A stretch of 64,000 nucleotides of DNA from Victivallis lenta. GTDB lineage: Bacteria; Verrucomicrobiota; Lentisphaeria; Victivallales; Victivallaceae. The position numbers were made by a program, and so were the translations under genes. Shown piece after piece: positions 32,186 to 62,050 of the stretch. The first letter of the stretch is position 1, and each line of letters opens with the position of its first letter. Below the pieces are notes generated by a model. That model made no database searches, was not told where the DNA came from, and worked only from the letters and a program-made list of their open reading frames with translations. The stretch is from the NCBI RefSeq assembly GCF_009695545.1, contig NZ_VUNS01000024.1, positions 1 through 64,000 on the forward strand, written 5' to 3'.

Positions 32186-32272
32186 TTCGGGCCGGTATCA
32201 TTTGTAAATATAATTGCAAATGTTATATTGAAGTACCAAAGTTTGCGATATATGGGAAAACAGGTTGCGACA

Positions 32273-33252: not shown

Positions 33253-33666
33253 TTAATCTATTTTTCTGCTTTCGTTCTTCCTGCGTACTTTCACGAATTT
33301 CCAAACATTCGACGGTGATGTTTCGATGCCTTGTCTGTGCAACTCCTCGGCAATCGCTCTGGCACTCATGTGTTGCTCATTCCAGGCTTTCAGTATCCAC
33401 TTTTCATGCGCCGCCAGCTTGCTGTGTCCAGGACCATTCCGTTTATGGCGGGAAAGCCTGTGAAATCCCAGTTCGTAAAGCTGCGCCGGGCTGTAATGCC
33501 AGACTTTGGTTTCCTCTCTTTCCAGTTGCTTATACAGGGAAGAACGATAAAACAGGAGCAACGCCTCTTTCAACGGCATTCCGGTATTCTTTGAAATCAG
33601 ACCGGCAACTCCCGCCGCTTTCCCGGGAATCAGCAAGCGCAAATTCTGCTGGTTTATTTCCTGCAT
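33253..33666 (-). CDS. DUF3990-cassette third protein fused to an HTH domain, cassette B
   Basis: A 137-residue two-part protein. Residues 1-70 (PGKAAGVAGLISKNTGMPLK, then EALLLFYRSSLYKQLEREET and VWHYSPAQLYELG) match a small protein usually found alone beside DUF3990/DUF3791. Residues 78-130 (HSKLAAHEKWILKAWNEQHM, then ARAIAEELHRQG and VWKFVKVRRKN) look like a helix-turn-helix DNA-binding domain. That domain closely resembles the N-terminus of the island protein at 60505 (QSKLTPYRNEILKAWF...). The fusion suggests an antitoxin that also represses. It overlaps the DUF3990 gene by 13 bases and is last in its operon. Confidence 0.72.
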   Translation of the reverse strand: MQEINQQNLRLLIPGKAAGVAGLISKNTGMPLKEALLLFYRSSLYKQLEREETKVWHYSPAQLYELGFHRLSRHKRNGPGHSKLAAHEKWILKAWNEQHMSARAIAEELHRQGIETSPSNVWKFVKVRRKNESRKID

Positions 33667-34151
33667 CGAATCACCTCGCTGCCCGTAAAATTCAAAATCA
33701 AAAGAGACTTTTCCGTATGAAACAAAGTCTGATCGACCAACCGGCGCACTTTCAGCCGTTCCAATAATTCCGCTTTCGAGATCAGGTCATTTTCATACAG
33801 AGCAAAACTGGCGTACACCTGATCGTTCGCAACCGGCCCCGCAACAATATCATAATCATGGCAAAAATCCGGTTGCCGCCGATTCTTCAAAACAAAATCA
33901 ACCCATTCTTCATCCGCAGCTTTGAATGTCCGAACTCGGAGAAAGTCATTGTGCAGAAAATCATCCGGCACATCGTAGATCGAAAGACAGCCTTCGGCCA
34001 CATTTTGCCGGGCAGCTTTGCTTTGGACAAAACGCCGGGCCTGCTCTTCGCTTGAGGTTGTGTAAAACCCGATGCCGAAATCTCCGATCCTGTCGGCCGA
34101 TAAAATTTTCGGCTCCTTGACCGGAATGAGGCCGCCGTGGAATAATTTCAT
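33654..34151 (-). CDS. DUF3990 (ADP-ribosyltransferase-fold) toxin-like protein, cassette B
   Basis: A 165-residue DUF3990 protein, the second in the island. MKLFHGG at the N-terminus, DFGIGFYTTSSEEQARRF, SIYDVPDD, and DEEWVDFVLKNRRQPDFCHD followed by YDIVAGPVANDQVY show the same blocks as cassette A, but overall identity is low, so the two are not recent duplicates. The start overlaps the DUF3791 stop (ATGA). Transcription runs toward cassette A, tail to tail. Confidence 0.82.
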   Translation of the reverse strand: MKLFHGGLIPVKEPKILSADRIGDFGIGFYTTSSEEQARRFVQSKAARQNVAEGCLSIYDVPDDFLHNDFLRVRTFKAADEEWVDFVLKNRRQPDFCHDYDIVAGPVANDQVYASFALYENDLISKAELLERLKVRRLVDQTLFHTEKSLLILNFTGSEVIRCRK

Positions 34152-34369
34152 GCCTGCTCCCTCCGATTGCGAATGAAGGCTTCAATTTCCTCCAAAATGG
34201 CGCGTGCTCCCATCGAGTGCAACACCTCATAATGCTCTAGCAGATATTCAATCACTCCACAGCGATTGAAAAAATCGATCACCTTCTGACCGGAACACCC
34301 CATCTTTGCCTTGTACTCTTCCACGCAGAAAGAGACAAATGCAAGCTTTTTTTCTTCCGATATGCTCAT
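34148..34369 (-). CDS. DUF3791 protein, first gene of cassette B
   Basis: A 73-residue DUF3791 protein: AFVSFCVEEYKAKMGCSGQ, then VIDFFNRCGVIEYLLEHYEVLHSMG split across its helices. DUF3791 is habitually encoded just before DUF3990. It is helical and soluble, with a GGAGG site before the ATG. It is probably the antitoxin or chaperone component of the cassette, but that is inferred from gene order. Confidence 0.83.
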   Translation of the reverse strand: MSISEEKKLAFVSFCVEEYKAKMGCSGQKVIDFFNRCGVIEYLLEHYEVLHSMGARAILEEIEAFIRNRREQA

Positions 34370-34658: not shown

Positions 34659-35024
34659 ATGAACACCAAACTCTATGAACTGACTAAACAGGGAGTCATC
34701 CGAATGATTCTCCGGCGAGGTGACGACGGCAACTACCTGCTTGGCATCAGCGATGGCACTCACAACCCGCTTTACCTGAATGGTTCGCAGGAAACAATCG
34801 AAAATAAACTGGATCAGGCACTCGCGAACTTTACCGCCGATACCCGAAAGCAGGATATTGCGGATAAGTTGAATGAGGCAGAGGAGGCTCAAGTTGAATC
34901 GCCCCCCGCATCGGTACAAACGCCTCGGAAAACCACTGTGCCGACCTCTGCTTCCGCGCATACGACCTCGCGTACAGAACGCTCCGAAGAACAGATGGAA
35001 TTGGACCTGGCTTTCAACTTTTAA
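34659..35024 (+). CDS. PRTRC system protein E
   Basis: A 121-residue protein. The N-terminal half (MNTKLYELTKQGVIRMILRR, then GNYLLGISDG and ALANFTADTRKQDIAD) resembles PRTRC protein E. The C-terminal half is a low-complexity Pro/Thr/Ser/Ala linker ending in EEQMELDLAFNF. CGGAGGAACC precedes the ATG. PRTRC proteins are encoded together on plasmids and ICEs; the role of E is not established. It starts the E-C-F-B-ThiF series. Confidence 0.75.
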   Translation: MNTKLYELTKQGVIRMILRRGDDGNYLLGISDGTHNPLYLNGSQETIENKLDQALANFTADTRKQDIADKLNEAEEAQVESPPASVQTPRKTTVPTSASAHTTSRTERSEEQMELDLAFNF

Positions 35025-35062
35025 TCGTATCTTACCAATCAACAAAAGAAGGAAAAATTATC

Positions 35063-35269
35063 ATGGCACCCCGCTCATCCTCCCGCATTTTCAGCTACAA
35101 CGGCAAAGTTCTGGAAGATCCCGTTCCGAATGAATCGGTCAAAAAGGCGATGGAAATTCTTTCGGTCATGCATCCGGAATTGAACAACGCTGTCTTGAAA
35201 GGCCCGACTGTCGGCCGGGACGGCGTCAAACATTACAAAATCGAAAAACGGGTGGGAAATTTCAACTGA
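35063..35269 (+). CDS. PRTRC system protein C, ubiquitin-like (Prok_Ub family)
   Basis: A 68-residue protein matching PRTRC-C: RIFSYNGKVLEDPVPNESVK, AMEILSVMHPELNNAVLKGP and a C-terminal HYKIEKRVGNFN. The family is a prokaryotic ubiquitin-like beta-grasp domain known to neighbour E1-, E2- and JAB-like genes. The tail ends Gly-Asn-Phe-Asn instead of an exposed terminal Gly. If conjugated, it would need trimming after Gly, or it acts without conjugation. The stop overlaps the next ATG by one base. Confidence 0.8.
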   Translation: MAPRSSSRIFSYNGKVLEDPVPNESVKKAMEILSVMHPELNNAVLKGPTVGRDGVKHYKIEKRVGNFN

Positions 35270-35451
35270 TGAGAAAAACACTCACCTGGCAGAAGCTGCT
35301 CAAACGATTTGTTACCGAGCGGAAAGAGTATAAAATCCAATTGGCTCATTTTAACGAAAGAAATTCAAGATGCGCCTCCAGCCTGCTTCGTGCGGCAGAA
35401 AACGCCAAACCGGTTTCCATGCCCGGCCACGTCCTGCCGCCCATTATGTAA
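35269..35451 (+). CDS. Small frame overlapping the start of PRTRC-F
   Basis: A 60-residue basic frame whose ATG overlaps the PRTRC-C stop. Its last 82 bases overlap the annotated start of PRTRC-F in another frame. Two readings are possible: a short coupled gene whose translation delivers ribosomes to the F start, or the true N-terminus of F separated by a frameshift. The Arg-rich first 25 residues of F look like an out-of-frame shadow of this frame, which favours a true F start later or the frameshift reading. Confidence 0.35.
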   Translation: MRKTLTWQKLLKRFVTERKEYKIQLAHFNERNSRCASSLLRAAENAKPVSMPGHVLPPIM

Positions 35452-36437
35452 CGTTGCCCTCTTTGGACAAGGTTCAGGAATCCATCGGGACCCGGCAACA
35501 GGTCACGGGACTTTGCCATATTCTGGCGGAGCTCAATACCCTGTTTCCGCTGGAAGGCATTCTTCAGAAAGAAAACAATCCGGCCACAGTCTTATCCATG
35601 GGGATGCGGCAGTGGCTGGAAAGTTTTTTGCCGTCCGATGTTGTTCAACAAATAAGCCTTTCGGTCCAGATTGCCTCTGACGAGGATTTTGATGAGGAGT
35701 TATTCGGAGAACTGCCCCCGGATTACATGGCGGTCACGTTTCAATTGGATCGATTTCTGGATTGCTATTGTCCGTTCGGCAATCTCATTGAAGAGTATGA
35801 AAAGAAATCTCCGGGACTTGGCCGGTATCTGCTGCACATTTTTACAGCCTGTCCGTTCATCATCGGGACGCCGGGCAATCTTTATGAACTGGCCTCTTAT
35901 TGCTGCTGGGAGAATGAAGACGATGAAAGGTCATTCATTGAAGATCGCTGTGCCGAGGAAGTCGCAGCAGGGAATAGCGAGGAGATTGCCCGGGAGTATG
36001 CTGAAAGTCAGGTGACAATCAGATATGAGGAATTTGAGAAAAATCTTCCGTTATGGAGTTTCAGCCGGAAAGAGAATCCGGCTGACTATCGGAAACGCCT
36101 TCCGGAAGAACTGCGGCATCTGGATCGGCTTTACCGGACATACCGTCGCCATAAGTACACCGATAACTTCTGGCCGCGGCTGAACTTGCCGTGCGTCATC
36201 CTGGGGCTGGATCAACCTACATTCGATTTTCTGTGTCATGCTTACAACAGGATCGGCAATGAACAGGTCCAGTATTATGACGGCTGCTACTGCCTGGCCG
36301 GTTTCGGATGCGCTTTTCAGCCGACGAACTCATCGCAAATCCGAAATGCGCTTCAGGAAATCCGGTTTGCCCTGGAATATTTTGGAGCCTGCATCCAATT
36401 TTTACTGCAGCATAGAGAGGAATATCCCAATGATTGA
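35370..36437 (+). CDS. PRTRC system protein F (alpha-helical partner)
   Basis: A frame of 355 residues. From about residue 27 (VTLPSLDKVQESIGTRQQVT, then GLCHILAELNTLFPL) it resembles PRTRC protein F, a mostly helical protein found with the ubiquitin-like, E2-like and E1-like members. Features seen include ASYCCWENEDDERSFIEDRC in the middle and NFWPRLNLPCVILGLDQPT followed by FDFLCHAYNRIGNEQVQYYD near the C-terminus. The only ATG, at 35370, has a weak ribosome-binding site and gives an odd Arg-rich start. Function unknown; scaffolding in the cassette is a guess. The stop overlaps the B gene by 8 bases. Confidence 0.7.
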   Translation: MRLQPASCGRKRQTGFHARPRPAAHYVTLPSLDKVQESIGTRQQVTGLCHILAELNTLFPLEGILQKENNPATVLSMGMRQWLESFLPSDVVQQISLSVQIASDEDFDEELFGELPPDYMAVTFQLDRFLDCYCPFGNLIEEYEKKSPGLGRYLLHIFTACPFIIGTPGNLYELASYCCWENEDDERSFIEDRCAEEVAAGNSEEIAREYAESQVTIRYEEFEKNLPLWSFSRKENPADYRKRLPEELRHLDRLYRTYRRHKYTDNFWPRLNLPCVILGLDQPTFDFLCHAYNRIGNEQVQYYDGCYCLAGFGCAFQPTNSSQIRNALQEIRFALEYFGACIQFLLQHREEYPND

Positions 36438-37146
36438 AGTTCAATATCAGCCTCAGGAACATCCCTATAAGCTCTCACACGCAATCCTTTTCTATCGGAA
36501 TAATCAGGGTACGCTGGCAACGCTGCATAAGATTCGCAACAAACAGTTCATGTCCGGCAAAAGCCTTGACCCTGCCGAGTTGGAGGAGCTGCTGCATACT
36601 CCGAACCAGCAAAGGCACATGAACTACCTGCCGGCTCAAGTTATCGCCTATTCTCAAAACGAAATTCTGTGGTTTGAGAAAAGTGCTGTCCGTCCCATCT
36701 ACTTCAACGTCCCGAAGGAAGAGAAAGAACGTCTTTTTCTGAACCGGATCTCCGGGAAAAAGGTGATCTGGCCCAGTTTGCTTTTCAAAATAAGCCGTAA
36801 TTCGATTTCCTGCTGGGCACTCAAAAGCAACCGGCATCCATTACCCACGACGCAATTGTATTTTGCACCTTTTACCAATTTGTTCTCCGATCAGAAATTC
36901 TGTCTGCCCAATGCGGTTTACAGCAATCCCCCGGACAACCTGCTGAAATTCGCCACCCATGCCGTCGACATCATCTTTCAGGGACATTTTTCCCATTTGT
37001 GCGGCGTAAGGGAGAACACGTCCTATCCGGGCGGCCGGGATCGTTTCTGGGCGGATATGGCCCGGCAGGTCGAACAGAATGCGATCAAAAGTTTTCCGAC
37101 GAAATATCTGCTTCCCATGAATAAAACTTTGGAGAATATCCTGTGA
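36430..37146 (+). CDS. PRTRC system protein B, E2-like (Prok-E2_D family)
   Basis: A 238-residue protein resembling PRTRC-B, classed in Pfam as a prokaryotic E2 (ubiquitin-conjugating-like) family. HAILFYRNNQGTLATLHKI at the start, LPAQVIAYSQNEILWF near residue 70, then TTQLYFAPFTNLFSDQKFCL at 140-160. Cys158 (in KFCLPNA), just after the strand-turn, sits where an E2 active-site Cys is expected; Cys128 is the other candidate. Assigning the catalytic Cys is inference. It overlaps F by 8 bases and ThiF by 4, leaving no room for the JAB-type A gene often encoded in this cassette. Confidence 0.77.
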   Translation: MIEVQYQPQEHPYKLSHAILFYRNNQGTLATLHKIRNKQFMSGKSLDPAELEELLHTPNQQRHMNYLPAQVIAYSQNEILWFEKSAVRPIYFNVPKEEKERLFLNRISGKKVIWPSLLFKISRNSISCWALKSNRHPLPTTQLYFAPFTNLFSDQKFCLPNAVYSNPPDNLLKFATHAVDIIFQGHFSHLCGVRENTSYPGGRDRFWADMARQVEQNAIKSFPTKYLLPMNKTLENIL

Positions 37147-37907
37147 AACACCATACACCGCCTGAATTTCATGAGCAAACTGTTTTTGTCGAGTTGATCG
37201 GCGCCGGGGCCACCGGCTCCAAGATTCTTGCCGGACTCGTGCAACTGCACCATGCCATGCTGGAGCTGGGACATCCGCGCGGACTTCACGTCCGCTGCTG
37301 GGATTTCGACATGGTTTCCCATTCCAACCTCGGCAGACAGCTTTTCACAGAAAGCGATCTGGGCTGCAACAAAGCGGTCTCCTTGATTTCCCGCTACAAC
37401 TATCACTATTCGCTGGAGTGGACTGCGGAACCGCAACGTTTTACCGCAATTCCCATGGGATATCCGGGCAGTGCCATCCTGATTTCCGCTGTCGACTCCC
37501 GCAAATCCCGTTCGGAAATCAATCAGCATCTGCATAAATATCCCAAACCGTATTTGATCGATTGCGGCTGCGGCCGGGACTATGCTCAGTGCGCCATCGG
37601 AAACGGTTCTCCTGAACTGCCTTACCCATGGCAACTCTACCCGGACTGGATCGATCCCGCAAAAGACGGGAAACTGCGCTCAAGCTGTTCCATGGAGGAT
37701 GCCTTAAATCGTCAGGGGCTTTTCACCAACCAGTGGATTGCCACCGCCGTTCTGGAATTCATCTGGCAGCTCTTCCGATTTGGCGGGCTGGATTATTCCG
37801 AATTGTATATCAATCTGCAGACCGGCCGCATGACTTCCCGCCCCATCATGATTCCTCCTCGGAAAAAAGTTGCCGGGAACAGGAAAAAAAGAAAAGCGGT
37901 TTCATAA
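37143..37907 (+). CDS. PRTRC system ThiF-family (E1-like) protein
   Basis: A 254-residue ThiF/E1-like adenylating protein. It has LIGAGATGSK (nucleotide-binding Gly loop, residues 19-27), CWDFD (acidic end of beta-2), HSNLGRQLF (the Asn-x-x-Arg-Gln of E1 enzymes, residues 60-68), an AVDSR loop about residue 117, and a candidate catalytic cysteine at 182 in SSCSMEDALNRQ. The start is GTG 37143 overlapping the B stop. The C-terminal basic tail (PPRKKVAGNRKKRKAVS) could bind nucleic acid. It should activate the C-terminus of PRTRC-C by adenylation if the cassette works as a conjugation system. Confidence 0.88.
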   Translation: MKHHTPPEFHEQTVFVELIGAGATGSKILAGLVQLHHAMLELGHPRGLHVRCWDFDMVSHSNLGRQLFTESDLGCNKAVSLISRYNYHYSLEWTAEPQRFTAIPMGYPGSAILISAVDSRKSRSEINQHLHKYPKPYLIDCGCGRDYAQCAIGNGSPELPYPWQLYPDWIDPAKDGKLRSSCSMEDALNRQGLFTNQWIATAVLEFIWQLFRFGGLDYSELYINLQTGRMTSRPIMIPPRKKVAGNRKKRKAVS

Positions 37908-38014: not shown

Positions 38015-38563
38015 ATGCCGATCAAACTTGATGACCCGAACGCTCTGGAGCAACTGACGGAAAAGCTCAGCAAACGCCGACAGCTTCAGGAGATGATGAA
38101 AGAGGTCAATGCCGTTATCCGCAGCTCCAAAAGCGACGATGCCAAGATCGATTTCATCATGAAGAAATGCGGCAAAAGCCGGGAAGAAGCCCGGAATTTT
38201 CTTCATCCCTCCGAAAGCTGGTGCGACCCGGGATTCGCCGCGTGGGAACTTGCCAACAACAATCAGGAGATCGGCCGCCTCCGCAAGAGAATCCAGGAGG
38301 TCGAACGCTATCGGGAAGCCGCCGCCAGAGCGGAAAAAGAAGGCAATTCGGAATTTCCGTTCGACGGCGGCAGGATCGTGGACAACGTTCCGGCCAATCG
38401 CCTTCAAATCTTTTTCGACAGGAAGCCCGATGCCGATGTTCGGACCAGACTCAAACAGAATGGGTTCCGCTGGGCGCCGAACAGCGGAGCCTGGCAGAGT
38501 TACCGGCACGGGTATACGCTCGACTGGGCCAAACGGGAATTCAATGCCGAGGCAATCCAATGA
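38015..38563 (+). CDS. Unrecognised protein with phage/ICE-type C-terminal domain
   Basis: A 182-residue hydrophilic protein. The N-terminal 110 residues are helical and probably coiled coil (LEQLTEKLSKRRQLQEMMKE, RLRKRIQEVERYREAAARAE). The C-terminal 60 (NRLQIFFDRKPDADVRTRLK, then GFRWAPNSGAWQSYR) match a short domain often seen in proteins of ICEs and phages, usually without known function. GAGGAGAG precedes the ATG. The next gene starts inside its stop (ATGA), starting a string of coupled small genes. Confidence 0.72.
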   Translation: MPIKLDDPNALEQLTEKLSKRRQLQEMMKEVNAVIRSSKSDDAKIDFIMKKCGKSREEARNFLHPSESWCDPGFAAWELANNNQEIGRLRKRIQEVERYREAAARAEKEGNSEFPFDGGRIVDNVPANRLQIFFDRKPDADVRTRLKQNGFRWAPNSGAWQSYRHGYTLDWAKREFNAEAIQ

Positions 38564-39438: not shown

Positions 39439-39897
39439 ATGCACAAACAGACCTTGAAAAATCTGCTTCAATATCACCGCGAGGTCCAATTCAAACAGTT
39501 CTGCAGCGAAATTTTCCCGGACTTCAGGCTTTCCGAATCCTACGGCTACCTGAGCGGAAAATTTTCGCTGTTCCAGTACCGCTTCATGCAATTCCTGTCG
39601 GAGCTGGATGAAGCCCATCTGGAAAATTTTTCCAATGCCATTCTGAAACGCTATGGCAGCGATGAACCGGAGTTCTGCAACATCATGGATTCCATGCAGG
39701 AACTGATCGCGCGGAAACGACGGACGAATCTCCCGGAAGATCAGCGGCAGTTGCTGCGGCTTCAGGCGCAGGCATTGCTGGTGGAGGAAGTGTACCCGTT
39801 TGAAACCAGATTGAAAGCGGACGAACGGGAGATGGAGCTTGCCGCGCTTCGGTCGTTGCTGGAGGAACTGAAAGCCTTTGCCGAGGAATCCTTATGA
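39439..39897 (+). CDS. Unrecognised helical protein
   Basis: A 152-residue almost wholly helical, charged protein (KNLLQYHREVQFKQFCSEIF at the start, DQRQLLRLQAQALLVEEVYP, then REMELAALRSLLEELKAFAE at the end), possibly a coiled-coil dimer. An extended upstream start at 39343 would read through the hairpin, so I chose ATG 39439. The stop overlaps the start of the PAPS-reductase-family gene (ATGA). Confidence 0.66.
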   Translation: MHKQTLKNLLQYHREVQFKQFCSEIFPDFRLSESYGYLSGKFSLFQYRFMQFLSELDEAHLENFSNAILKRYGSDEPEFCNIMDSMQELIARKRRTNLPEDQRQLLRLQAQALLVEEVYPFETRLKADEREMELAALRSLLEELKAFAEESL

Positions 39898-40664
39898 GCG
39901 ATCTCGACCTGACTCCATACAACCTGATTGCACTCTCAACCTCAGGCGGCAAGGACAGCGAAGTGACGATGATCAAAGTTGCCGAAGCCGCGCGGAAGCA
40001 GGGCGTCCTGCAACGGGTGATTGCGATTCACTCGGCAACCGGCGCGGAATGGAGCTGTACGGAAGATATTGCGTCTAAAATTGCAAAACTTTTGAATATT
40101 CCACTATATGTTGTACATCCGAAGTGGACGATTCCAGATTATATCGAACATCGATTGCGCTTCCCGGATATGCGACGGCGTTTCTGCACCTCTTTGAAAA
40201 CATCCGCCATCGACAAACTGCTGCGCAAGTTTTTTCCGGCAACAGCGCCATCCAAAATTCTTTCCGTTACCGGGGAACGCCGGGAAGAAAGTTCCCATCG
40301 TGCCAAATTGTCGGAATTTGAACCCTGCACCCGGCTGACTGCCGGACAGCGCCAGGTCTTTCATTACCGCCCGATTCTGGACTATGAACTCGGAGAGGTC
40401 TGGGAAACCATTCGCAAATCGGAATTGCTCCACCATCCCGCCTATGACATGGGCAACGAACGGCTTTCCTGTGCGCTTTGCATTTTCGCCTGCAACCGGG
40501 ATTTGTGGAACGGCGCCCGCGACCGTCCGGATCTGAAGGAACGATATCTGCGTCTGGAGGAACAGACCGGATTCACTTTTCGGCACAAGGAATCCCTGAA
40601 GCAGATTCTCGCCGGGGAAAAAGAGATGGAACCATGTCCATTTCAAATGAAAAAACAAAAGTAG
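39894..40664 (+). CDS. PAPS-reductase/ATP-pyrophosphatase family protein
   Basis: A 256-residue protein of the adenine-nucleotide alpha-hydrolase fold. The PP-loop is STSGGKDSEVTM (about residues 15-26), followed by HSATGAEWSCTEDI and RRRFCTSLKTSAIDKLL, as in phosphoadenosine phosphosulfate reductase-like proteins. Cysteines in SCALCIFACNRDLW near residue 200 may bind metal or an Fe-S cluster. Mobile elements often carry such proteins; relatives include DndC of DNA phosphorothioation. No other dnd genes are present, so sulfur modification is not claimed. Confidence 0.82.
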   Translation: MSDLDLTPYNLIALSTSGGKDSEVTMIKVAEAARKQGVLQRVIAIHSATGAEWSCTEDIASKIAKLLNIPLYVVHPKWTIPDYIEHRLRFPDMRRRFCTSLKTSAIDKLLRKFFPATAPSKILSVTGERREESSHRAKLSEFEPCTRLTAGQRQVFHYRPILDYELGEVWETIRKSELLHHPAYDMGNERLSCALCIFACNRDLWNGARDRPDLKERYLRLEEQTGFTFRHKESLKQILAGEKEMEPCPFQMKKQK

Positions 40665-44035: not shown

Positions 44036-47000
44036 ATGGAAGCACTGAATTTCGATCTGTTCGACCTTGAGGCGCCGGAAGAATCTCTGGCGCTGCCGTC
44101 GCTGGAGAGCCTGGGCTGGAAGCCTCGCTTCACATCACCCGCCGCACTGAAACCGATTGCGGACATTCCCCGCAGCAACTATCGGATCAGGCCGGAGGAT
44201 GTGCTGTATCCGGCTGGGGCCAAACACAAAATCGCGGCCAACATCACCGCGATCCGGCTTCTGAAGGAGCTGGAACACTCCGGCCGCTCCCCATCGGATG
44301 ACGAATGCCGGCAGTTGATTCAATACTCCGGTTGGGGCGGGATTCCGCAGGCGTTCGATCCCGACCGGCAGGAGTTCGCCCGGGAGTATGAGGAACTCAA
44401 AGCAGCACTGACCGTTCAGGAGTACGTTTCAGCCCGCGCCTCGACGTTGAACTCCCACTACACGCCGAAGTTTCTGATTGAATTTCTGTGGAAAATTGCG
44501 GAAAAGGCGGGGATCGCCGGAGGCGAGTTCGGGGAGTTCGGCGCCGGCGTCGGCCACTTTATCGGAATGATGCCGGAACAGATCCGCGGCCGCTTCACGG
44601 CGGTGGAAATCGACGACATCTCAGGGCGGATCATGCGGCAACTCTATCCGAATGAGCGAATCATCATCGACGATCTCGCCAAAACATTGATTAAACGCAA
44701 TTCGCTGGATCTGGTCATCGGCAATGTTCCGTTCGATCAAGTCGGGCCGCACGATTCGGATTATGTCGGCTACAACCTGCACAATTACTGCATTGCGCGC
44801 GCACTGGACGCGCTGAAGCCGGGCGGGCTGGCGATTCTGCTGACCACCGCCTCCACGATGGATTCCAAGTCGGTCAATGCCAGAGGCAACTTCGCTTCGA
44901 GAGCTGTCTTGCTTGCCGCGATCCGCCTGCCGAATACCGCATTCGAAGAGGTTGGCACCGAAGTGGTCGCGGATATCCTGATATTGCAGAAGGGAGCGGA
45001 AAACAGGGAAAAATTCCTTGAACTCCAAGCGATTGAGACGCCGGATCACACCGGAATCATGCGGGTGAATGAATATTTTGCCACCCATCCGGAAATGGTT
45101 CTCGGAATTCCGTCCAATACCGGGAAGATGTACGGCAGGGGCGGCAGCGCCACCGTCCTGCCGTTCAGCCGGCCGCTGGCGGAACTTCTGACCGTGCCGG
45201 AGCTGGCAGTACAGCAGGTCGAACAGCCGGAGCCCGATCTCTTCGGAGACACCGGAGAACAAACCCTGGAAGTTGAACTGCCGTATCCCATGCGCGAATA
45301 CACCCTGTTCCAGTTTGACAACCGCATCTGGCAGTGCCGCAACCACCGGGGAGTGCTGTTCACCGACAGAAACGGACGGGAGTTTTCCGGCAACGAATGG
45401 CGCAAGCTGGAACACTTCATTGATTTCAAGGAAACCTTGAATACCCTGCTGGCGCTTCAGCTCGATCCGCAGGCCGCCGCCATCGCCATCGAAGGGAAGC
45501 GGGCTCTGCTGAACCGTCAATACGACTACCATGTCAGGCAGTTCGGCCGCCTCAACAACCGGATCGTCCACCGCAATATGCAGGAGGACCCGGATTACCT
45601 GAAACTCGCCGCGACCGAAAACATCCGCAAAGTGGTGGAAACGACGCTTGACGGCATCAAAACGCATAAGCTGGTCTACGAAAAGGGAGACATCTATTTC
45701 AAGCGGACGCAGCACCCGTGGAAAGAACCGGATTCGGCAGAGGACATCGTGCAGGCGGGCCTGATCTCCCACGCCTACCGGCACCGGATCGACATGGAAT
45801 ACGTTGCGGAGCTGGTGAAGCTCGATCAGGCGGAAGCCCTGAAACTGCTGCTGGCCTCCGGCGAGTTTTTCGAGGAACCGGTCACGCGGGAAATCCAGCT
45901 CAAAAGCGAATACCTTTCGGGGAATGTCGTCCGGAAACTGCAGATCGCCCGCGAACTGGCTCCGCAGAACGTCCCGGCGCTGGAAGCGGTGCAGCCTAAG
46001 CCGCTGCGGATCGAGGAGATCGACTTCCAACTGGGCAGTTTCTGGATTCCGCCGGAGATCGTTCAAAACTGGCTCGAAACCTCATTCGAGACCAGATGCC
46101 GGGTATCCTATGCGAAAGCCGAGGACAAATGGTATGTGACGGCAGACTTCGCCGAGCGATACAGCGTGACGGAATTCCAGATCGCCGACTGGAACCTTTT
46201 CCGGCTGGTGGAAGCTGCTCTGAACCTGAAAGAACCGGCTGTGTACCGCAAAGAGTACGATGCGGACAATGAGGAAAAGCTGGTGCTCGACCAGGAGGCG
46301 ACATTGACCGCCCGACGATACAAAAACGAGTTGAAGAACCGGTTCCGCAACTACGTCATGGACTCCCCCGAGGCCGCCGAACAACTGGAAAGTATCTACA
46401 ACGCCATTTTCAACTCCCATGTGACGCGGCAGTACGAGTTGCCCGCCTTCGACGTTTATCCCGGAGCGGTCGACATCGTCAACGGCAGGAAATTCATCCT
46501 GCGGGAGTATCAGAAGCGGGCGGTCAGCCGCTGCATCGAAGGCAACGCCCTGCTGGCGCACTGCGTCGGAGCCGGTAAAACCGCCATCATGGTCACCGGA
46601 GCGATGGAACTGAAGCGGCTCCGGCTGGCGAGCAAAACGCTGATCGTGGTCCAGAATGCGACGCTGCGCCAGTTCGCCGAATTCGCCCCGAAGCTCTACC
46701 CCCACGCCCAAATCCTGATCGCCGACAAAAAGGATCTGGTCAGGGAGAAGCGGAAGCGGTTCATGTCCCGCATCGCGGTCGGCGACTGGGATATGGTGAT
46801 TATGGCGCAATCCTCGTTCGATATGATCAAGGACGATCCCGACCTGGTGGCCCGGCATTATGAAGAGCAGATCGCCGAGCTTGAACAGATCATCGAAGAG
46901 AGCGAAGATCAGGCCACCATCAAGAATGTGGAGCGGCAGAAAAAGCGTCTGCTGAAGATGCTCGACAAGCTGAACGACAAAAAAGCCGAAGAGGATATCA

Positions 47001-49105
47001 TCTATTTCTCGGACCTCGGCATCGACGCGCTGATGATCGATGAAGCGCACGCCTACAAACGCAACTTCTTCCCGACCAAGCTGCAGCGCATCCGGGGACT
47101 TGACCGCAGCGCCAGCCAGAGGGCGTTCTCATTGTGTCTGAAAATCCGCTATATCATGGAGAAAACCGGCGGCCGCAACATCTACTTTTCCACCGGAACG
47201 CCGGTCACCAATACCATTGCGGAACTCTGGAACATGATCCGGTACATCAGCCCCGCAACGCTGGAGGAGTTCGGCATCAGCACCTTCGACCGTTTCGCCT
47301 CGGTATTCTGCGGTGTGGAGGTGGCGCTGGAGCAGGATGCGGCGGGACGCTTCCGGATGATACAGCGCTTCGCCAAATACTGCAACGTGATCGAACTTTC
47401 GAAGATGTTCCGAAGTGTCGCCGACGTGATTCTGGAAGAGGATCTGGCCGGAGTGGAGCGTCCTCCGATCAAAGGGGGCCGTCCCGAACAGGTCAATATT
47501 CCGCGCAGCCCGGTGATTTCCAGATTCATGGACTACCTCTGCGACCTGTACGAATGGTATGAGGATCACCCGGACAAGCGGCTGCTTTCGCATATTCCGC
47601 TGCTGATCTACGGCATGAGCCGCAAGGTGACGATCGATCCGAGGCTGATCGATCCGCGTTTTCAGGATGACCCGGAATCCAAGCTGAATGTCTGCGTCCG
47701 CAATATTCTTGACAAATACCGGACCTATGAGTCCGTCAAAGGGGCGCAGGTGGTCTTTTGCGACCTTTACCGCAATGTCTGCAACGGCGTCGAGCTGTTC
47801 AATGCCTGGCAGGAGATCAAGCGCAAACTGGTCGCCAACGGCATCCCCGCCGATGAGATCGCCGTAATCGGCGATTACAACATCGACAAGCAGAAAGCCG
47901 ACCTGTTCGAGCGGGTGAATTCGGGAGAGGTCCGCATAATCATCGGCTCGACCATGAAGCTCGGGACCGGCGTCAACATTCAGGAACGCCTCGCGGTCGA
48001 ACACGACCTCGACTGTCCGTTCCGGCCTGCCGACGTAGAGCAGCGCAAGGGACGCATCGTTCGTCAGGGCAACATCCTCGAAGAGGTGGAGATCATCCGC
48101 TATGGAATCGAGCAGACGCTTGACGCCGGAATGTACGCGATCCTCGAACGCAAGCAGAAATTCATCAACGACGCGATGAAGGGCCGCAGTTCCCGCACCG
48201 TTCAGGAGATCAACGATGACTGCGCGCTGGACTACGCCAGCTTCTCGGCCGCGATTTCCGGCAATCCGAAACTCAGGCGCAAGGTCGTAATCGAAACCCG
48301 CCTCAAGGAGCTGGATGTACTGGAGTTCCAATACCGGCGGAATCTCCGCAGCCGGCAGGAGCAGCAGAAGGCGCTGGCCCGGCAGATCCCCGAGATGCAA
48401 AAAGAGATCCCGGAGCTGGAAAAATTCATTCAAGCCTATCCGGAGCTCCCGCTCGGAAGCCTTCCGATCTACTACGGCGACCGGGAACTGACCGGGACGC
48501 TGAAAAACAAAATGGAAGTGTTGGACCACATCCTGCGCGACGCTTTCAGAGCTGCCGCGAGGAATAGTTCGTTTGCGAATCCGGAGGGGATGCAGATCAT
48601 GAAGCCGCTGACCATCGGCACGCTCAAATTCCAACTGGTCGCCAAGGGGTGCAGGGGGTGGCTCGATTATGACACCAAGCAGTCATGCGTGCAGTATCAG
48701 TTCGCCGGCCTGGAGTTGCCGAATCTCCCGGTGCAACTGCAGAAAGAAGCGGATGACGCCGAAAAACTGCTCAACGGCATCCGTAATCTCGTCGCGAACA
48801 AAGCCCGGGAACTGGAAAAAAGCCGTCAGGAACTGGCGGCGAAGATCGCCCGGCTCGCCAAGCTCCAGTCAACTCCGCCCGAAGAATTCGACGCGACCGG
48901 CGAACGCAGCGCCCTGTCGCTGGAGCTCGAACAGATCATCTACGAACTCAACAAAACCAGCGAAGGGATGCGCAAACGATATGAATCTGAAGAGGAACCG
49001 CTTCTCTCTGACTACTTTCCCATGCTCGGTAAAGTCAAAGCTCTCGGTAACGTCGAAATCATCGACGGCAGCGAGGAAGATGCGGCAGAGGAAGAGAGCG
49101 CATGA
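44036..49105 (+). CDS. N6-adenine methylase / SNF2-type helicase fusion
   Basis: A 1689-residue protein of the large mobile-element methylase-helicase type (DarB-like). Residues about 130-290 form an adenine methyltransferase domain: EFGAGVGHFIG (SAM motif I, about 167-177) and NVPF (about 230-233, in place of NPPF/NPPY). Residues about 820-1400 form an SF2/SNF2 helicase: AHCVGAGKTA Walker A about 840, MIDEAHAYKR about 1000, STGTPVTNT, and VEQRKGRIVRQG motif VI about 1335. The C-terminal 250 residues are coiled coil. Such proteins protect incoming element DNA from host restriction or modify it. A single Pro replaces the second catalytic position, so methyl transfer should be tested. Confidence 0.9.
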   Translation: MEALNFDLFDLEAPEESLALPSLESLGWKPRFTSPAALKPIADIPRSNYRIRPEDVLYPAGAKHKIAANITAIRLLKELEHSGRSPSDDECRQLIQYSGWGGIPQAFDPDRQEFAREYEELKAALTVQEYVSARASTLNSHYTPKFLIEFLWKIAEKAGIAGGEFGEFGAGVGHFIGMMPEQIRGRFTAVEIDDISGRIMRQLYPNERIIIDDLAKTLIKRNSLDLVIGNVPFDQVGPHDSDYVGYNLHNYCIARALDALKPGGLAILLTTASTMDSKSVNARGNFASRAVLLAAIRLPNTAFEEVGTEVVADILILQKGAENREKFLELQAIETPDHTGIMRVNEYFATHPEMVLGIPSNTGKMYGRGGSATVLPFSRPLAELLTVPELAVQQVEQPEPDLFGDTGEQTLEVELPYPMREYTLFQFDNRIWQCRNHRGVLFTDRNGREFSGNEWRKLEHFIDFKETLNTLLALQLDPQAAAIAIEGKRALLNRQYDYHVRQFGRLNNRIVHRNMQEDPDYLKLAATENIRKVVETTLDGIKTHKLVYEKGDIYFKRTQHPWKEPDSAEDIVQAGLISHAYRHRIDMEYVAELVKLDQAEALKLLLASGEFFEEPVTREIQLKSEYLSGNVVRKLQIARELAPQNVPALEAVQPKPLRIEEIDFQLGSFWIPPEIVQNWLETSFETRCRVSYAKAEDKWYVTADFAERYSVTEFQIADWNLFRLVEAALNLKEPAVYRKEYDADNEEKLVLDQEATLTARRYKNELKNRFRNYVMDSPEAAEQLESIYNAIFNSHVTRQYELPAFDVYPGAVDIVNGRKFILREYQKRAVSRCIEGNALLAHCVGAGKTAIMVTGAMELKRLRLASKTLIVVQNATLRQFAEFAPKLYPHAQILIADKKDLVREKRKRFMSRIAVGDWDMVIMAQSSFDMIKDDPDLVARHYEEQIAELEQIIEESEDQATIKNVERQKKRLLKMLDKLNDKKAEEDIIYFSDLGIDALMIDEAHAYKRNFFPTKLQRIRGLDRSASQRAFSLCLKIRYIMEKTGGRNIYFSTGTPVTNTIAELWNMIRYISPATLEEFGISTFDRFASVFCGVEVALEQDAAGRFRMIQRFAKYCNVIELSKMFRSVADVILEEDLAGVERPPIKGGRPEQVNIPRSPVISRFMDYLCDLYEWYEDHPDKRLLSHIPLLIYGMSRKVTIDPRLIDPRFQDDPESKLNVCVRNILDKYRTYESVKGAQVVFCDLYRNVCNGVELFNAWQEIKRKLVANGIPADEIAVIGDYNIDKQKADLFERVNSGEVRIIIGSTMKLGTGVNIQERLAVEHDLDCPFRPADVEQRKGRIVRQGNILEEVEIIRYGIEQTLDAGMYAILERKQKFINDAMKGRSSRTVQEINDDCALDYASFSAAISGNPKLRRKVVIETRLKELDVLEFQYRRNLRSRQEQQKALARQIPEMQKEIPELEKFIQAYPELPLGSLPIYYGDRELTGTLKNKMEVLDHILRDAFRAAARNSSFANPEGMQIMKPLTIGTLKFQLVAKGCRGWLDYDTKQSCVQYQFAGLELPNLPVQLQKEADDAEKLLNGIRNLVANKARELEKSRQELAAKIARLAKLQSTPPEEFDATGERSALSLELEQIIYELNKTSEGMRKRYESEEEPLLSDYFPMLGKVKALGNVEIIDGSEEDAAEEESA

Positions 49106-49983: not shown

Positions 49984-51516
49984 ATGAACACGAAACTTCC
50001 CGTCAGTCGAATTCAGTGTGAACCGGACCGTACCTACAACAAAGCGGATGACATGCACCTGCGTGCGAGCATCAAAAGCCGGCTGGACAAAGGCCTGAAG
50101 CCGCTGCTGCAGCCGGTCGCGCTGAAGAAGCTGGAAAACAATCCCGATTACGATTATGCGGTGGACGACGGCCGCCGCCGTTTTCTGGCGCTGCTCGACT
50201 TCAAATTCACGGAACTCGAACTCGGTCAGGAGGCGATCCTGATTGACGGCGATTCGGAGATCAACGCCTATCTGGCGAACCAGCATACGAACCTCTCGCT
50301 GGCGGAAGAGATCGCCAAGCTCTATTCCATGCGGGAAAAATTCCCGACGCTGGACGGCCTCGCCGCGGAGATCGGCCACTCTCCGAGCTGGGTGGCGCGC
50401 CGGCTCAATCTGCTGAACCTTTCCGAACTCTGGAAGAAGGCGATGGAGGGCAAGACCTTCGGCTATATGACGGTTTCGCACTACGAAACGATCGCGACGT
50501 TTCCGCCGGAGATTCAGGATAATATTTTCGATTACATCCGCGGCGTCGAGGGCCGGGAGTTGAAAACCATGAGCGTACGCAAATTCAGCGAAACGCTGTA
50601 TGACCGGTTCGCCACGCTGCTGTCGAGCCTGCCGTGGCCGGAAGAAGGGTGCGGCGAATGTCCGGCCTGCCGGGAACGCCGGGATTCCGGCTTTCTGTTC
50701 GCCAATCTGCTCCCCGAACCGCGCTGCATGAACCGGGAATATCTGGAAAAAAAGCGCAAGGAATATGTGGCCGGCCTTGCCGCACAGGAGCCGGAGACGG
50801 TTCTTGTATCGCAGAAGTACCACACTCAGGAAGAGGATGACCAAAAAGATGATGAAGATCCATTGGCGGGAAATCCGGTTCTCGGTCCCGGCGACTGGCG
50901 CGAAACCGACAAACCGGAGGAAGGTGTTCCGGCGATCATCGCGGACGGGCCGCGCGCGGGAACGAAAATCACGATCCAGCGCCCGAAAGCCTCTGAGGAA
51001 GCCGCTCCGAAAAAGAGCAAAACGCTGGCCGAGCGCAAGGAAGCGAAGATGCGCCAGCGCAAACGCAAGGCCATCGACATGCTGATGACCGCGATCAGGG
51101 ATGGCAAAGCCGCGACTCCCTCCCGGACCGCGATTTACCTGATGATCGCCTGCAAAGGGACCAAGCCGGCCTGCGGCAGCCAGTTCGACTATAAAACGAA
51201 AAAGCATGTCAATGCAGCCGGCCTGCCGGACAAAATTCAAAGCTACTGCTCCCTCGATGCGCGGGAACTGACCGCCTCCGGACAGCTCGACGATCTGCTC
51301 TGGAACCGGGTCTGCGAAAATATCTTTTCCGAACTCACGTATGGGCAGAGCGGCCCCGAAGAACCGCGCTGGCAGGAAGCGGAGCTGATTGCTGGGCTGG
51401 TACAGTTCGATCTGGCCAAGGCGCTCGAAGAAACTACCGCCCTGTTGCCCGATCCGAAAGCCTGGGAGGCGTTGGCCAGAGCCGAGGCGAAACAGCCCGT
51501 GCCCCAAGCGGCCTGA
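49984..51516 (+). CDS. ParB-family protein, PRTRC ParB-like
   Basis: A 510-residue ParB/Spo0J-type protein. The ParB N-domain is visible (VDDGRRRFLALLDF about residue 57-70, HTNLSLAEEIAKL about residue 103), followed by an HTH (LAAEIGHSPSWVARRLNLLN, about residues 130-150). A four-cysteine cluster (GCGECPACRERRDSGF, about residue 220) may bind zinc. A charged linker and a C-terminal 150-residue domain follow. A ParB-related protein is a defining PRTRC member, but this one stands 12 kb from E-ThiF. It could act in partition or, as in other PRTRC sets, in an unknown DNA-linked process. No ParA is seen. Confidence 0.82.
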   Translation: MNTKLPVSRIQCEPDRTYNKADDMHLRASIKSRLDKGLKPLLQPVALKKLENNPDYDYAVDDGRRRFLALLDFKFTELELGQEAILIDGDSEINAYLANQHTNLSLAEEIAKLYSMREKFPTLDGLAAEIGHSPSWVARRLNLLNLSELWKKAMEGKTFGYMTVSHYETIATFPPEIQDNIFDYIRGVEGRELKTMSVRKFSETLYDRFATLLSSLPWPEEGCGECPACRERRDSGFLFANLLPEPRCMNREYLEKKRKEYVAGLAAQEPETVLVSQKYHTQEEDDQKDDEDPLAGNPVLGPGDWRETDKPEEGVPAIIADGPRAGTKITIQRPKASEEAAPKKSKTLAERKEAKMRQRKRKAIDMLMTAIRDGKAATPSRTAIYLMIACKGTKPACGSQFDYKTKKHVNAAGLPDKIQSYCSLDARELTASGQLDDLLWNRVCENIFSELTYGQSGPEEPRWQEAELIAGLVQFDLAKALEETTALLPDPKAWEALARAEAKQPVPQAA

Positions 51517-56707: not shown

Positions 56708-59700
56708 TTATAAATCCATTCCACGCCCGGAATCCTTTGGGATCTCCGGCGGCGCCGGAAAACGGGGCTGCGCCCGTTCCGGCGATCTGCTTTTAACGGC
56801 TTTCTCCTTCTTCGGTTTCGGCTTCGATTCCGGTTCCAACTCTTTCTGAGCAGCCTCGCGCTCATTGAGCTTGCGCTTTTCCTCTTCAACCCATGCATCG
56901 AACTCCTCCCAACCCCACGAATTGCGGGACCGTGCTGGAACGCCGACCTTTTCAAGTACCGGCTCCGATTCCAGCTTTTCCAGCTCCGAGGGGTTGTGTT
57001 TTTCTTCCGCATTCCATCTCTCCGAACTATGATGATCCTCCTGAGCGGCTGTTCTTTCAACTCCCGGCTCCGGATCATTCCCGCCATGCTTGCGCTTTTC
57101 CTCTTCGATCCATGCCTCGAACTCATCCCATCCCCATGAACTACGAGAACGGGCTGGAGCATTGTTTTTTCTCACCGCCGGCTTCGGCTCATCCGGAACG
57201 GCGTTTCCCTGACGAATCAGTTCTTTTATGACCGGTTCCGATTCAAGCGGCTTTGGAGGCTGGACCGCCGGAAATTCGACGGCGTGTTCCTTTTCAAGTT
57301 CAAGCAATGTCTTTTCCGTAACGATTCCGAAACCGTATCTGGCATTGCGACTGCGGCGGTCCGCCACTCTCCGACAATAACGCCTTACCCGGGCCGCCAC
57401 TCCCTTCAGATATCTCCGCAACTTCCTCAGTCGCCCTTCCACAGACTTGTACTCTGTATCCGGCCGCTTCTCTGCCGCCAGCAGCCGAACCTCCTCCGGC
57501 AAAGGCCGCCGTTCCGGAACGCGGGGAATCTCCCCCTCATCGACCAGATCATGCACGCTCAGGCGGCATTTTTTATCTTTCAATAACTGTTCTTTCAGAA
57601 ACTCTTTATCCGGACAGTGCAGCGCCATATTCAACCGCCCGCGACTCAGGGCCACATAGAAACTTTTCCGGTCTATCTCCTGCGCCGCCACAACCACCGT
57701 ATCGGCGGTCCGCCCCTGTGACTTGTAGGAGGTTGTAACCCAGCCGGGACTGATCGCTGAGCAGTTCTCCGGAAAATCAACCAGTTCCCGGTCGGTTCCA
57801 TCGGCGTTCAGCAGCATGATCTTTGCCGGATCATCAACGATCCGGGCGAGGTTGCCGTTATAGATTTTCCGGCTTTTCAGGTTGACGCCGAACTGGATCA
57901 CATCCCCCGGGCAAAGTTCCATTTCCCGCAGTTCTCCCGCTTCGATATAACCCGCCGACCGCCGGAGGTGGATCGACTTGCCGCTGGTGAAATGCAGCAT
58001 TCCGTCTGCGATCGATTCGACCACCGCATATTCGCCCGCCTCCGCGATATCCTTGAGGCTGCGCACAAAGGATACCGCCATGCCGGGGCGATAGTTCGCA
58101 GCCTCCGCCAGCATGGCTTTCTCCCACCGCCAACTGCGGAATACCGGCAGCATTCGTCCGGTTCGAGCAATCACTCCGGCCGTCTTCAGCCGTTCGCGGA
58201 CGGCGGAGGTCAGGTTGTCGCACTCGTCATGTGTCGGCGCCACCAGAATCGCCCGTTCGGGAAAACGGCCGTTTTCCGTGAACTCCAGATAGCTCTCCGC
58301 CGCTTTCTTCAGGTAGTCGGATTTCCCTTCATGAATAAAACCGTTCTCCTCGAATGTATCGAAAGCCGCCTGAAAATAGCCGTCGGCACAATAGGCAATC
58401 CCGGCGCGGTAGTTCTCGGACTGCTGCCGACGGATCGTTCTCAGCTCGAAGCGTGCAATCCCGGAATGGTTTTCCAGCAGCCGGAAGAAGTCGCCGCTTT
58501 CAACGGAAGTATGCTGCCGGGCGTCGCCGACGAACAGCACCCGGTAGTCGTTCTCGTTGGCGAGCCGGATAATCTCCGCGCCTTCGCGCAGAGAATTCAG
58601 TCCGCTTTCATCGATGATCACGTAACTGCCCGCTTCCGGTTTCTTTTCCGAAAGCAAAAAGCTCGCGACGGTGCTTGAATACTGAAATCCTTCCCCTTTC
58701 AGCACCTCAACCGCGCTGTTGGTCGGCGCGATCAGGTAAATGCGTTCGAGGCCGCAGCTTTGAAGGCCCCGGCAAAGTTCCTGCAAAGTCGAGGTCTTGC
58801 CGGAACCGGCCACGCCCCGGAACAGGTTGAAACGATCCGGAGAGTTCAGCAGCCCATGAATGATCGCGGCCTGTTCCTGCCGGCTCTCTTCGCCCGGAAA
58901 TGCTTCGAATTCCGGCGCGATGGGAGTAAGCAGATTACGCTGGCGTTCTACTGCTTCAATCGCGTAGAGTTCACGGTCGATTACCTCCTGCGGCGAATAC
59001 CACGGATTCTCCTTCAGCCCTCCGAGGTTGCACAGCTCCGGTACGTGCGGAACGGCCTGTTTCAAAACCTCCAGCTCAACATGGCCGAGGTTCCGGTTCA
59101 GGACCTCACCGAGAATCTTGTCGAGCTTCAGAACGCTTTCGCGTTCGTATAACTGCGGCAGGGCTTCCCGGATCATCCGGACGCAGGTTTCGATATCATT
59201 TCCCGGCAGGCTGCCGGTGTGCCTCCCGGCTTCCCGGACCATCTCATTCAGTTCCCGGCGCTGTTCATCCGAAAGCTGCGAAAGCTGGAACTGCCGCACC
59301 TTCGCCCGGTCGGAAGTTTTCAGCTTGTTTTCGCGGGTCGTCATCGAAAGAAAATTATTCTCCGCGAACGTCGGTTTCCGGCCATGCTCCGCGATGAATT
59401 TCTGTTCTTCGGCCTCAATCTCACGGCGGCGTTTCGAGTAGAGTTCCATCACCTCCGCCGAAACGCCTTTCAGGTCGAACCAGACGATCCGGCCTTTCTC
59501 GTCGCGGTGGTCAACCGTTTCGTAACCGAGTTCCCGGCATTTCCGGGCCAGATGGTTGTGGTAGACCTTCCCGGCGTAGCGAATCGCCCGGCACATCTCC
59601 AGGGCCTCCAGGGCCTTATAATTGCCGTCGGCGTCCTGCGTCAGATTGACCACCACATTATGCGTATGGAGCTGCGGATCGAGCGCACGGCTGGTGTCGT

Positions 59701-60151
59701 GCGTGAACCGCGCATAAAGGAGTTTGCCGGTAAGCTCATAGTTCCGGGTTTTCACATTTTCGCCCGTCCGCACCCGGACCGCGGCCAGATCTTCCAGTTC
59801 GTGCATCGCCGCCTGAACCGCCTCCTCATGGGCCTGAAGCAGCCGGGAATCGAACAATGAAATGATCGATACCGACTTCGGAGCCGCACATTGAAAATCA
59901 AAGAACCGGACGCCTGATTTTACAGTCCGCTGCGTCAGTTTTTCCAGGGTTTTAGGATTGATGTTCCGTTGAAACAAGCTGAACTCCTCCGAACTGACCG
60001 CATCCCACAAATCGAACTCCAACGCCAACCGTCCACACCATCTTCCCTGTACTTTTTCATGCTCCGAATAATAATCATTCGAAGAAAGATGATTCATATA
60101 AAAAGAACGACCATCCCCACGAACAGCCTTAATCTTCGTCATATTGAACAT
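56708..60151 (-). CDS. MobF-family conjugative relaxase/helicase (TrwC/TraI-like)
   Basis: A 1147-residue relaxase. SSNDYYSEHEKVQGRW near the N-terminus holds the tyrosines that cleave DNA at oriT, and DPQLHTHNVVVNL (about residue 160) is the three-His metal site. The helicase half has FRGVAGSGKTSTL (Walker A, about 445), YVIIDESG (Walker B, about 509) and TSYKSQGRTADTVVVA (motif VI). The tail carries two copies of a SWGW-x-EF-x-AW-x-EEEKRK module. I chose ATG 60151 (GGAG upstream) over 60211 because the family begins close to this point. It implies transfer by conjugation, with a helper pore because none is encoded here. Confidence 0.92.
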   Translation of the reverse strand: MFNMTKIKAVRGDGRSFYMNHLSSNDYYSEHEKVQGRWCGRLALEFDLWDAVSSEEFSLFQRNINPKTLEKLTQRTVKSGVRFFDFQCAAPKSVSIISLFDSRLLQAHEEAVQAAMHELEDLAAVRVRTGENVKTRNYELTGKLLYARFTHDTSRALDPQLHTHNVVVNLTQDADGNYKALEALEMCRAIRYAGKVYHNHLARKCRELGYETVDHRDEKGRIVWFDLKGVSAEVMELYSKRRREIEAEEQKFIAEHGRKPTFAENNFLSMTTRENKLKTSDRAKVRQFQLSQLSDEQRRELNEMVREAGRHTGSLPGNDIETCVRMIREALPQLYERESVLKLDKILGEVLNRNLGHVELEVLKQAVPHVPELCNLGGLKENPWYSPQEVIDRELYAIEAVERQRNLLTPIAPEFEAFPGEESRQEQAAIIHGLLNSPDRFNLFRGVAGSGKTSTLQELCRGLQSCGLERIYLIAPTNSAVEVLKGEGFQYSSTVASFLLSEKKPEAGSYVIIDESGLNSLREGAEIIRLANENDYRVLFVGDARQHTSVESGDFFRLLENHSGIARFELRTIRRQQSENYRAGIAYCADGYFQAAFDTFEENGFIHEGKSDYLKKAAESYLEFTENGRFPERAILVAPTHDECDNLTSAVRERLKTAGVIARTGRMLPVFRSWRWEKAMLAEAANYRPGMAVSFVRSLKDIAEAGEYAVVESIADGMLHFTSGKSIHLRRSAGYIEAGELREMELCPGDVIQFGVNLKSRKIYNGNLARIVDDPAKIMLLNADGTDRELVDFPENCSAISPGWVTTSYKSQGRTADTVVVAAQEIDRKSFYVALSRGRLNMALHCPDKEFLKEQLLKDKKCRLSVHDLVDEGEIPRVPERRPLPEEVRLLAAEKRPDTEYKSVEGRLRKLRRYLKGVAARVRRYCRRVADRRSRNARYGFGIVTEKTLLELEKEHAVEFPAVQPPKPLESEPVIKELIRQGNAVPDEPKPAVRKNNAPARSRSSWGWDEFEAWIEEEKRKHGGNDPEPGVERTAAQEDHHSSERWNAEEKHNPSELEKLESEPVLEKVGVPARSRNSWGWEEFDAWVEEEKRKLNEREAAQKELEPESKPKPKKEKAVKSRSPERAQPRFPAPPEIPKDSGRGMDL

Positions 60152-60309
60152 AGCTCCAACACCTTCTTTCAAAAGAAAAAAATCCCTTTTGAAACTCAAT
60201 GTAAAAGCCATAAATCAAGCTTACAATGACCAGACTCATCCTAAACCTGAACACCTGCCCAAGATGTACACTTTTCAAAGAGAAGAGAAAAAATAGGAAA
60301 CGCAATACT

Positions 60310-61945: not shown

Positions 61946-62050
61946 ATACCATGTATAGGTGACAAGCAATTGTCGGAGTAGAAAAGAACTCCTTTGTCGA
62001 GTAACTTTGGAAATTTACTCAAACCAAATTACCGAAAAAGGAGCTCAAAA

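Follow-up and report, generated by a model that had tools for sequence, protein, structure and literature searches.

E1/E2 systems are thought to require a small C-terminal residue, Gly and sometimes Ala. A bacterial representative, PRTRC (TIGR03734-TIGR03742; the 'fourth operon type', row 6d, in Iyer et al. 2006, PMC1779556), has been described since 2006, and no established function was found for it in the literature. According to the same survey, the JAB peptidase, unless fused to the E1, is always encoded by an adjacent gene (PMC1779556). Here we analysed the first 64,000 nucleotides of contig NZ_VUNS01000024.1 from Victivallis lenta (the window), which carries a cassette for a PRTRC E-like protein, a ubiquitin-like protein (C), a small protein (X), an alpha-helical protein (F), an E2-like protein (B) and an E1-like protein (ThiF). 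The cassette is almost certainly a JAB-less relative of PRTRC, with which it shares homologous C, F, B and ThiF genes, the gene order and a location on mobile DNA. It differs from PRTRC in that A (the JAB peptidase) and D (actin-like) are missing, in that a ParB-like gene lies 12 kb downstream and scores far below the family cut-off (33 bits against 278.6 for TIGR03734), and in that the ubiquitin-like protein ends in Asn. Two other systems are instructive. Like the window, for which this is predicted, CBASS (cyclic oligonucleotide-based antiphage signalling system) applies bacterial E1/E2 chemistry to the C-terminus of a protein; it differs in that E2 and E1 are fused in its Cap2, its substrate cGAS ends in Gly or Ala, and its Cap3 is an isopeptidase. 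Microcin C7 shares a ThiF-like adenylating enzyme (MccB) and an Asn-ended substrate (MccA), but MccA is a heptapeptide and MccB has a peptide clamp, no thioester and no E2 partner.

The C protein of the window ends in VGNFN rather than in a free Gly, as the initial annotation had read and as direct reading bears out. Its last codon (AAC, 35264-35266) encodes Asn at the position of the family's terminal Gly; because the position is the same, the Gly has been substituted and not followed by a tail. Gly occupies this position in 27 of the 31 tabulated C proteins, and the four exceptions are the window, L042 of genome G410 (IGDFN) and L074 of G398 (IGDDN), all with Asn, and L038 of G046 (VGTFR), with Arg. 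The C protein of L037 ends in VGNFG, and among the JAB-less cassettes 17/21 C proteins end exactly in Gly. A second cassette in G410, L105, which lies outside the 21 and was examined after the E1 pattern described below had emerged, also ends in IGDFN; at about 85% DNA identity to L042 it is a weak independent test. The Asn terminus is thereby documented at four loci in three genomes. These genomes are draft assemblies, but the chance that the Asn is a sequencing or assembly error is negligible: it occurs in three separate genomes and in a second copy in one of them, has codons that differ (AAC, AAC and AAT among the window, L074 and L042), and these relatives already refute such a reading. 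The E1 proteins of the Asn-ended group are monophyletic (support 100/100) in a clade that includes L073, whose C protein lies outside the contig. Two genomes carry two PRTRC cassettes each, namely G426 (L072 and L073) and G410 (L042 and L105/L046); in G426 one cassette is of the Gly-ended type and one has the Asn-type E1.

Cys182 of ThiF and Cys158 of B, both singled out in the initial annotation (Cys182 as a candidate), lie in conserved E1/E2 cysteine motifs and are retained in every aligned cassette, including the Asn clade; the Cys158 position is Cys in all 27 aligned B proteins. The E1 proteins of the Asn clade are marked by G23A in the P-loop, N143C and G220E. Residue 23 is Gly in 24/24 others of that alignment, and residue 143 is Asn in 23/24, the exception being L038, which has Val there and a ubiquitin-like protein that ends in Arg. 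Across the 32 systems in which both parts were read (including L080, whose C protein is that of L036), Asn143 went with a Gly terminus in 28, and Cys or Val at 143 with a non-Gly terminus in 4. As only two independent events underlie this link, a rough branch-based estimate puts the odds of its arising by chance near 1 in 1000, where a naive calculation would give 1 in 30000. A profile alignment placed residue 143 opposite the Thr of the UBA6 'LDSGTMGTKG' loop, which in E1 enzymes generally lies near the tail of the ubiquitin-like protein. Judged from the sequences, an Asn-ended ubiquitin-like protein with a covarying E1 is the new and unusual element here. The suggestion that the locus is a distinct branch of the system is supported by the Asn end of C and the E1 changes that go with it; the loss of JAB does not support it. 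In C, X, F, B and ThiF the proportion of nonsynonymous differences (pN) was far below that of synonymous differences (pS; for B and ThiF in the comparison of the window with L042 only), and purifying selection acts on the operon as a whole.

The best reading of these data is a functional JAB-less PRTRC variant on an integrated element, in which the E1 would have adapted to a non-Gly terminus. ThiF would adenylate the terminal Asn of C, C would form a thioester at Cys182, move from there to Cys158 of B and finally be joined to a target, and the tail pocket of the E1 would be reshaped to fit the non-Gly residue. We give conjugation with an Asn-ended C about an even chance. As the genome has no JAB isopeptidase above the profile cut-offs, conjugates would either be permanent or be undone by an unrelated enzyme. 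Several points weigh against this reading. When the terminal Gly of the CBASS substrate was replaced by Ser, Val, Arg or Trp, the Cap2 thioester and conjugation were abolished, and only Gly or Ala worked (PMC10097602); given this tolerance, standard chemistry would not be expected to conjugate a protein that ends in Asn. No PRTRC biochemistry was found in the literature, the association of residue 143 with the tail comes down to two independent evolutionary events (the Asn clade and L038), and the role proposed for residue 143 is read from its position.

A different fate for a terminal Asn is known from MccB, a relative of ThiF and E1, which converts the last residue of MRTGNAN to a succinimide and then to an N-P adenylate; when this Asn is changed to Gly, MccB instead makes an acyl-adenylate, which thiols trap in the form of a thioester (PMC12250964, PMC13255007). 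ThiF might likewise take the terminal Asn of C through a succinimide to an N-P adenylate (or isoaspartate), and C would then be a nucleotide-tagged protein instead of a Gly-linked modifier. The endings RVGNFN in the window and KVGNFG in L037 repeat the Asn/Gly contrast of the MccB substrate, and MccB is among the Protein Data Bank (PDB) matches of the E1 profile. However, the PDB matches rank ubiquitin E1 enzymes above MccB, and the N-terminal peptide clamp of MccB (about 90 residues) is missing here, where the P-loop of ThiF starts at residue 20. MccB makes no thioester, yet Cys182 and Cys158 are invariant in the cassettes. What the clade as a whole shares with the MccB substrate is the terminal Asn only: the Gly three residues before the end is often present in Gly-ended C proteins as well, and none of the other matching residues is conserved. 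We consider an MccB-like reaction distinctly unlikely, and hold the same of the corresponding history, in which the lineage would have replaced the Gly by Asn with a compensating N143C and switched to microcin C7-like chemistry, the ubiquitin-like protein itself being the modified product.

The system may instead be non-covalent or drifting in the Asn clade, with C acting as an adaptor while ThiF and B keep other roles. The terminal Gly has been lost in two lineages, to Asn in the clade and to Arg in L038, and an Arg terminus abolishes conjugation in CBASS. Against this stand the E1 and E2 cysteines, which have been kept, the purifying selection on the operon, the Asn held across four loci and the E1 changes that track the tail, so that this explanation appears rather doubtful. 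The Asn clade, with both cysteines kept and a changed E1, and its Gly-ended near relative L037 make a natural pair for probing the role of the terminal Gly.

The initial annotation had called the cassette incomplete and lacking JAB, and had recognised neither JAB nor D in the 64 kb. Both absences were upheld and extend to the whole genome (5.5 Mb, 99.9% complete; the locus is on its contig C24), in which the PRTRC_A, Prok-JAB and Pfam JAB profiles gave nothing above cut-off and PRTRC_D gave no match at E<=10. A weak PRTRC_A match at C18:72001 (E 0.02, 15.6 bits) was rejected as a piece without a Pfam match. The description as incomplete did not hold, as this JAB-less order recurs in each of the ten Lentisphaeria genomes that have a PRTRC ThiF (one of them the window's) and on numerous plasmids of Proteobacteria and Deinococcus. 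The 11 Lentisphaeria ThiF proteins form one clade (support 98/98). Plasmid cassettes without A occur in Pseudomonas, Aeromonas, Aliivibrio, Alteromonas, Pseudoalteromonas, Photobacterium and Deinococcus. ThiF, as a single query, matched 367 plasmid records, 141 of them from Pseudomonas, and one A query matched 122, for which the listed genera do not include Pseudomonas, Vibrio, Aeromonas or Deinococcus; both counts contain redundant records. The JAB-less cassettes on plasmids of Pseudomonas (NZ_CP138358.1, NZ_CP047261.1) and Alteromonas (NZ_CP013931.1) have the order ParB/E/C/X/F/B/ThiF without A and a C protein of mature length, as in the window, whereas their C protein ends in Gly and ParB adjoins E. 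The absence of JAB is thus an ordinary and common form of PRTRC and not the new feature, and the 2006 rule of an always-present adjacent JAB no longer holds. Because JAB is missing in many relatives too, it is not a defining part of the family in this sample (in which Bacteroidota are not represented), and the cassette is termed a JAB-less PRTRC variant.

The presence of JAB was related to the length of C. Six of the ten JAB-containing cassettes encode a C protein that runs beyond its Gly, compared with none of the 21 JAB-less cassettes (Fisher p 0.0003, uncorrected for kinship). The extensions read ADAQV or AHARI after the Gly of AGAKG, or amount to about 60 further residues, and all the cassettes concerned (L032, L033, L058, L060, L093 and L094) encode A. 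Since no extension occurs in the JAB-less cassettes, the ubiquitin-like protein is encoded there at mature length, and the concern that C would not be processed does not arise. A precursor that needs a protease borrowed from the host, as had been proposed, would fit those PRTRC C proteins that do extend past the Gly, but these are in A-encoding cassettes. The window's C has no residue beyond the terminal position and the genome offers no JAB match above cut-off from which to borrow, which makes this explanation very improbable. PRTRC commonly runs without JAB when C is encoded ready-made.

Other JAB genes and cassettes were seen beyond these loci. Other Lentisphaeria carry a JAB gene that is PRTRC_A-like but divergent (46-58 bits; G227:C39, G236:C69, G203:C382, G390:C318 and G410:C302; L082-L086). 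In G227 and G236 a ThiF, likewise divergent, lies at a distance of about 2 kb, in what seems to be a separate JAB-containing system. Lentisphaeria-type PRTRC cassettes also occur in IMG/VR 'viral' contigs (L079, L080 and L081). L080 and L081 share their C protein with Lentisphaerae GWF2_44_16, so these contigs might represent plasmids or integrated elements instead of viruses. In searches of the viral contigs neither B nor the E1 of the Asn clade found relatives; a broader E1 profile gave three cassettes, all Gly-ended.

The gene order E-C-F-B-ThiF had been identified correctly in the initial annotation, and all five genes are present, C, F, B and ThiF with matches to PRTRC families, but gene X between C and F and the ParB-like gene were missed. 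A counterpart of X, 53-76 codons long, occupies that position in nearly all cassettes examined (Lentisphaeria, Cupriavidus, Burkholderia, Pseudomonas and Photobacterium) and is annotated as 'hypothetical' in several plasmids. X has no Pfam or NCBIfam match. Within the window's clade its identity is 37-42%, and pN is about half of pS. From its recurrence, X is probably a cassette member so far unrecognised, in several phyla, and as such an addition to the known cassette. Two other explanations of this region were rejected. A -1 frameshift fusing C to X was considered at the slippery-looking A AAT TTC of the window, which does not occur in L042 or L074, and readthrough of the C stop is opposed by two successive stop codons (TGA TGA) after RVGNFN.

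The family assignments of the initial annotation were confirmed by profile searches, which placed C in Prok_Ub and B in Prok-E2_D above cut-off and identified ThiF as E1-like. C scored 46.6 bits against Prok_Ub (PF14454, cut-off 25) and 45.5 bits against TIGR03738 (PRTRC_C), marginally below the cut-off of 45.95; the C protein of L042 reached 51.3. ThiF scored 210.5 bits against TIGR03736 (PRTRC_ThiF, cut-off 144.75) and has the P-loop, the catalytic Asp and Cys182. B scored 109 bits against TIGR03737, below the family cut-off. B starts with an ATG and overlaps F by 8 bases, and the reported 4-base overlap of B and ThiF was found. The single-operon order E-C-F-B-(A)-ThiF is the same in the window and in annotated plasmids. 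E has no match in the family libraries; a beta-clamp-binding reading of its C-terminus (ELSLF in L038) was dropped as the motif is not conserved. The structural model of C (predicted local distance difference test score, pLDDT, 79) has the beta-beta-alpha-beta-beta order of the beta-grasp fold. A Foldseek search with this model gave no significant match; a second aligner returned SUMO, ISG15 and ubiquitin at Z of about 5, a modest score that other beta-grasp proteins equalled. No solved structures matched C or B by sequence, and a model of B was discarded for its poor quality.

The carrier of the cassette reads as an integrated mobile element, flanked by carbohydrate-related genes on either side (Table 1). 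The Lentisphaeria lineage proposed for the host was correct, and the nearest named relatives with a PRTRC cassette are Victivallaceae and Lentisphaeria metagenome-assembled genomes. The ParB gene recurs beside the cassette in Lentisphaeria relatives, and PAPS-reductase-family genes are also found near plasmid PRTRC loci. The two DUF3990 genes are not at the corresponding place in L042 and L074 and resemble inserted modules of the toxin-antitoxin type.

Table 1. Features of the PRTRC cassette and the surrounding element in the window
Feature	Coordinates	Strand	Basis or remark
Conserved upstream neighbour	30512-31051		recurs beside the cassette in Lentisphaeria relatives
DUF3990 genes (two), of which one is paired with DUF3791	32228-32728 and 33654-34369 (-)		located upstream of E, after the conserved neighbours
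PRTRC E-like protein, 121 aa	34659..35024	+	homologous to the gene directly upstream of C in L037, L042, L074 and L038
PRTRC C, ubiquitin-like, 68 aa	35063..35269	+	Prok_Ub PF14454, TIGR03738; beta-grasp model; tail comparison
Gene X, 60 aa	35269..35451	+	same cassette position across PRTRC loci; overlaps the stop of C and, at its other end, the start of F
PRTRC F, alpha-helical protein, start approximate	35370..36437	+	TIGR03742 E 5e-11 (below cut-off); PF14456 alpha-hel2 above cut-off
PRTRC B, E2-like; Cys158 at 36901-36903	36430..37146	+	PF14460 Prok-E2_D 79 bits (above cut-off)
PRTRC ThiF, E1-like; Cys182 at 37686-37688, Cys143 at 37569-37571	37143..37907	+	TIGR03736
Conserved neighbour, weakly DUF3560-like	38015..38563	+	homologues adjoin ThiF in L074, L042 and L037
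PAPS-reductase-family protein	39894..40664	+	PF01507; homologues in L074 and L037
Large helicase, 1689 aa, element backbone	44036..49105	+	homologues in L042, L038 and L074
ParB-family protein, distant PRTRC-ParB relative	49984..51516	+	TIGR03734 E 2e-8; iterative profile E 5e-80
ArdC-like antirestriction gene	51844-52695		part of mobile element
TrwC relaxase/helicase	56708..60211	-	PF08751 E 5e-67
IS110 transposase	61994-63223		part of mobile element

A plasmid-borne dnaN gene, encoding the sliding clamp, was found within about 5 kb of the PRTRC or PRTRC-like loci L035, L058, L062, L063, L069 and L071, and in L063 it is located between ParB and E. These nearby dnaN genes raise the possibility of a link between PRTRC and the sliding clamp.

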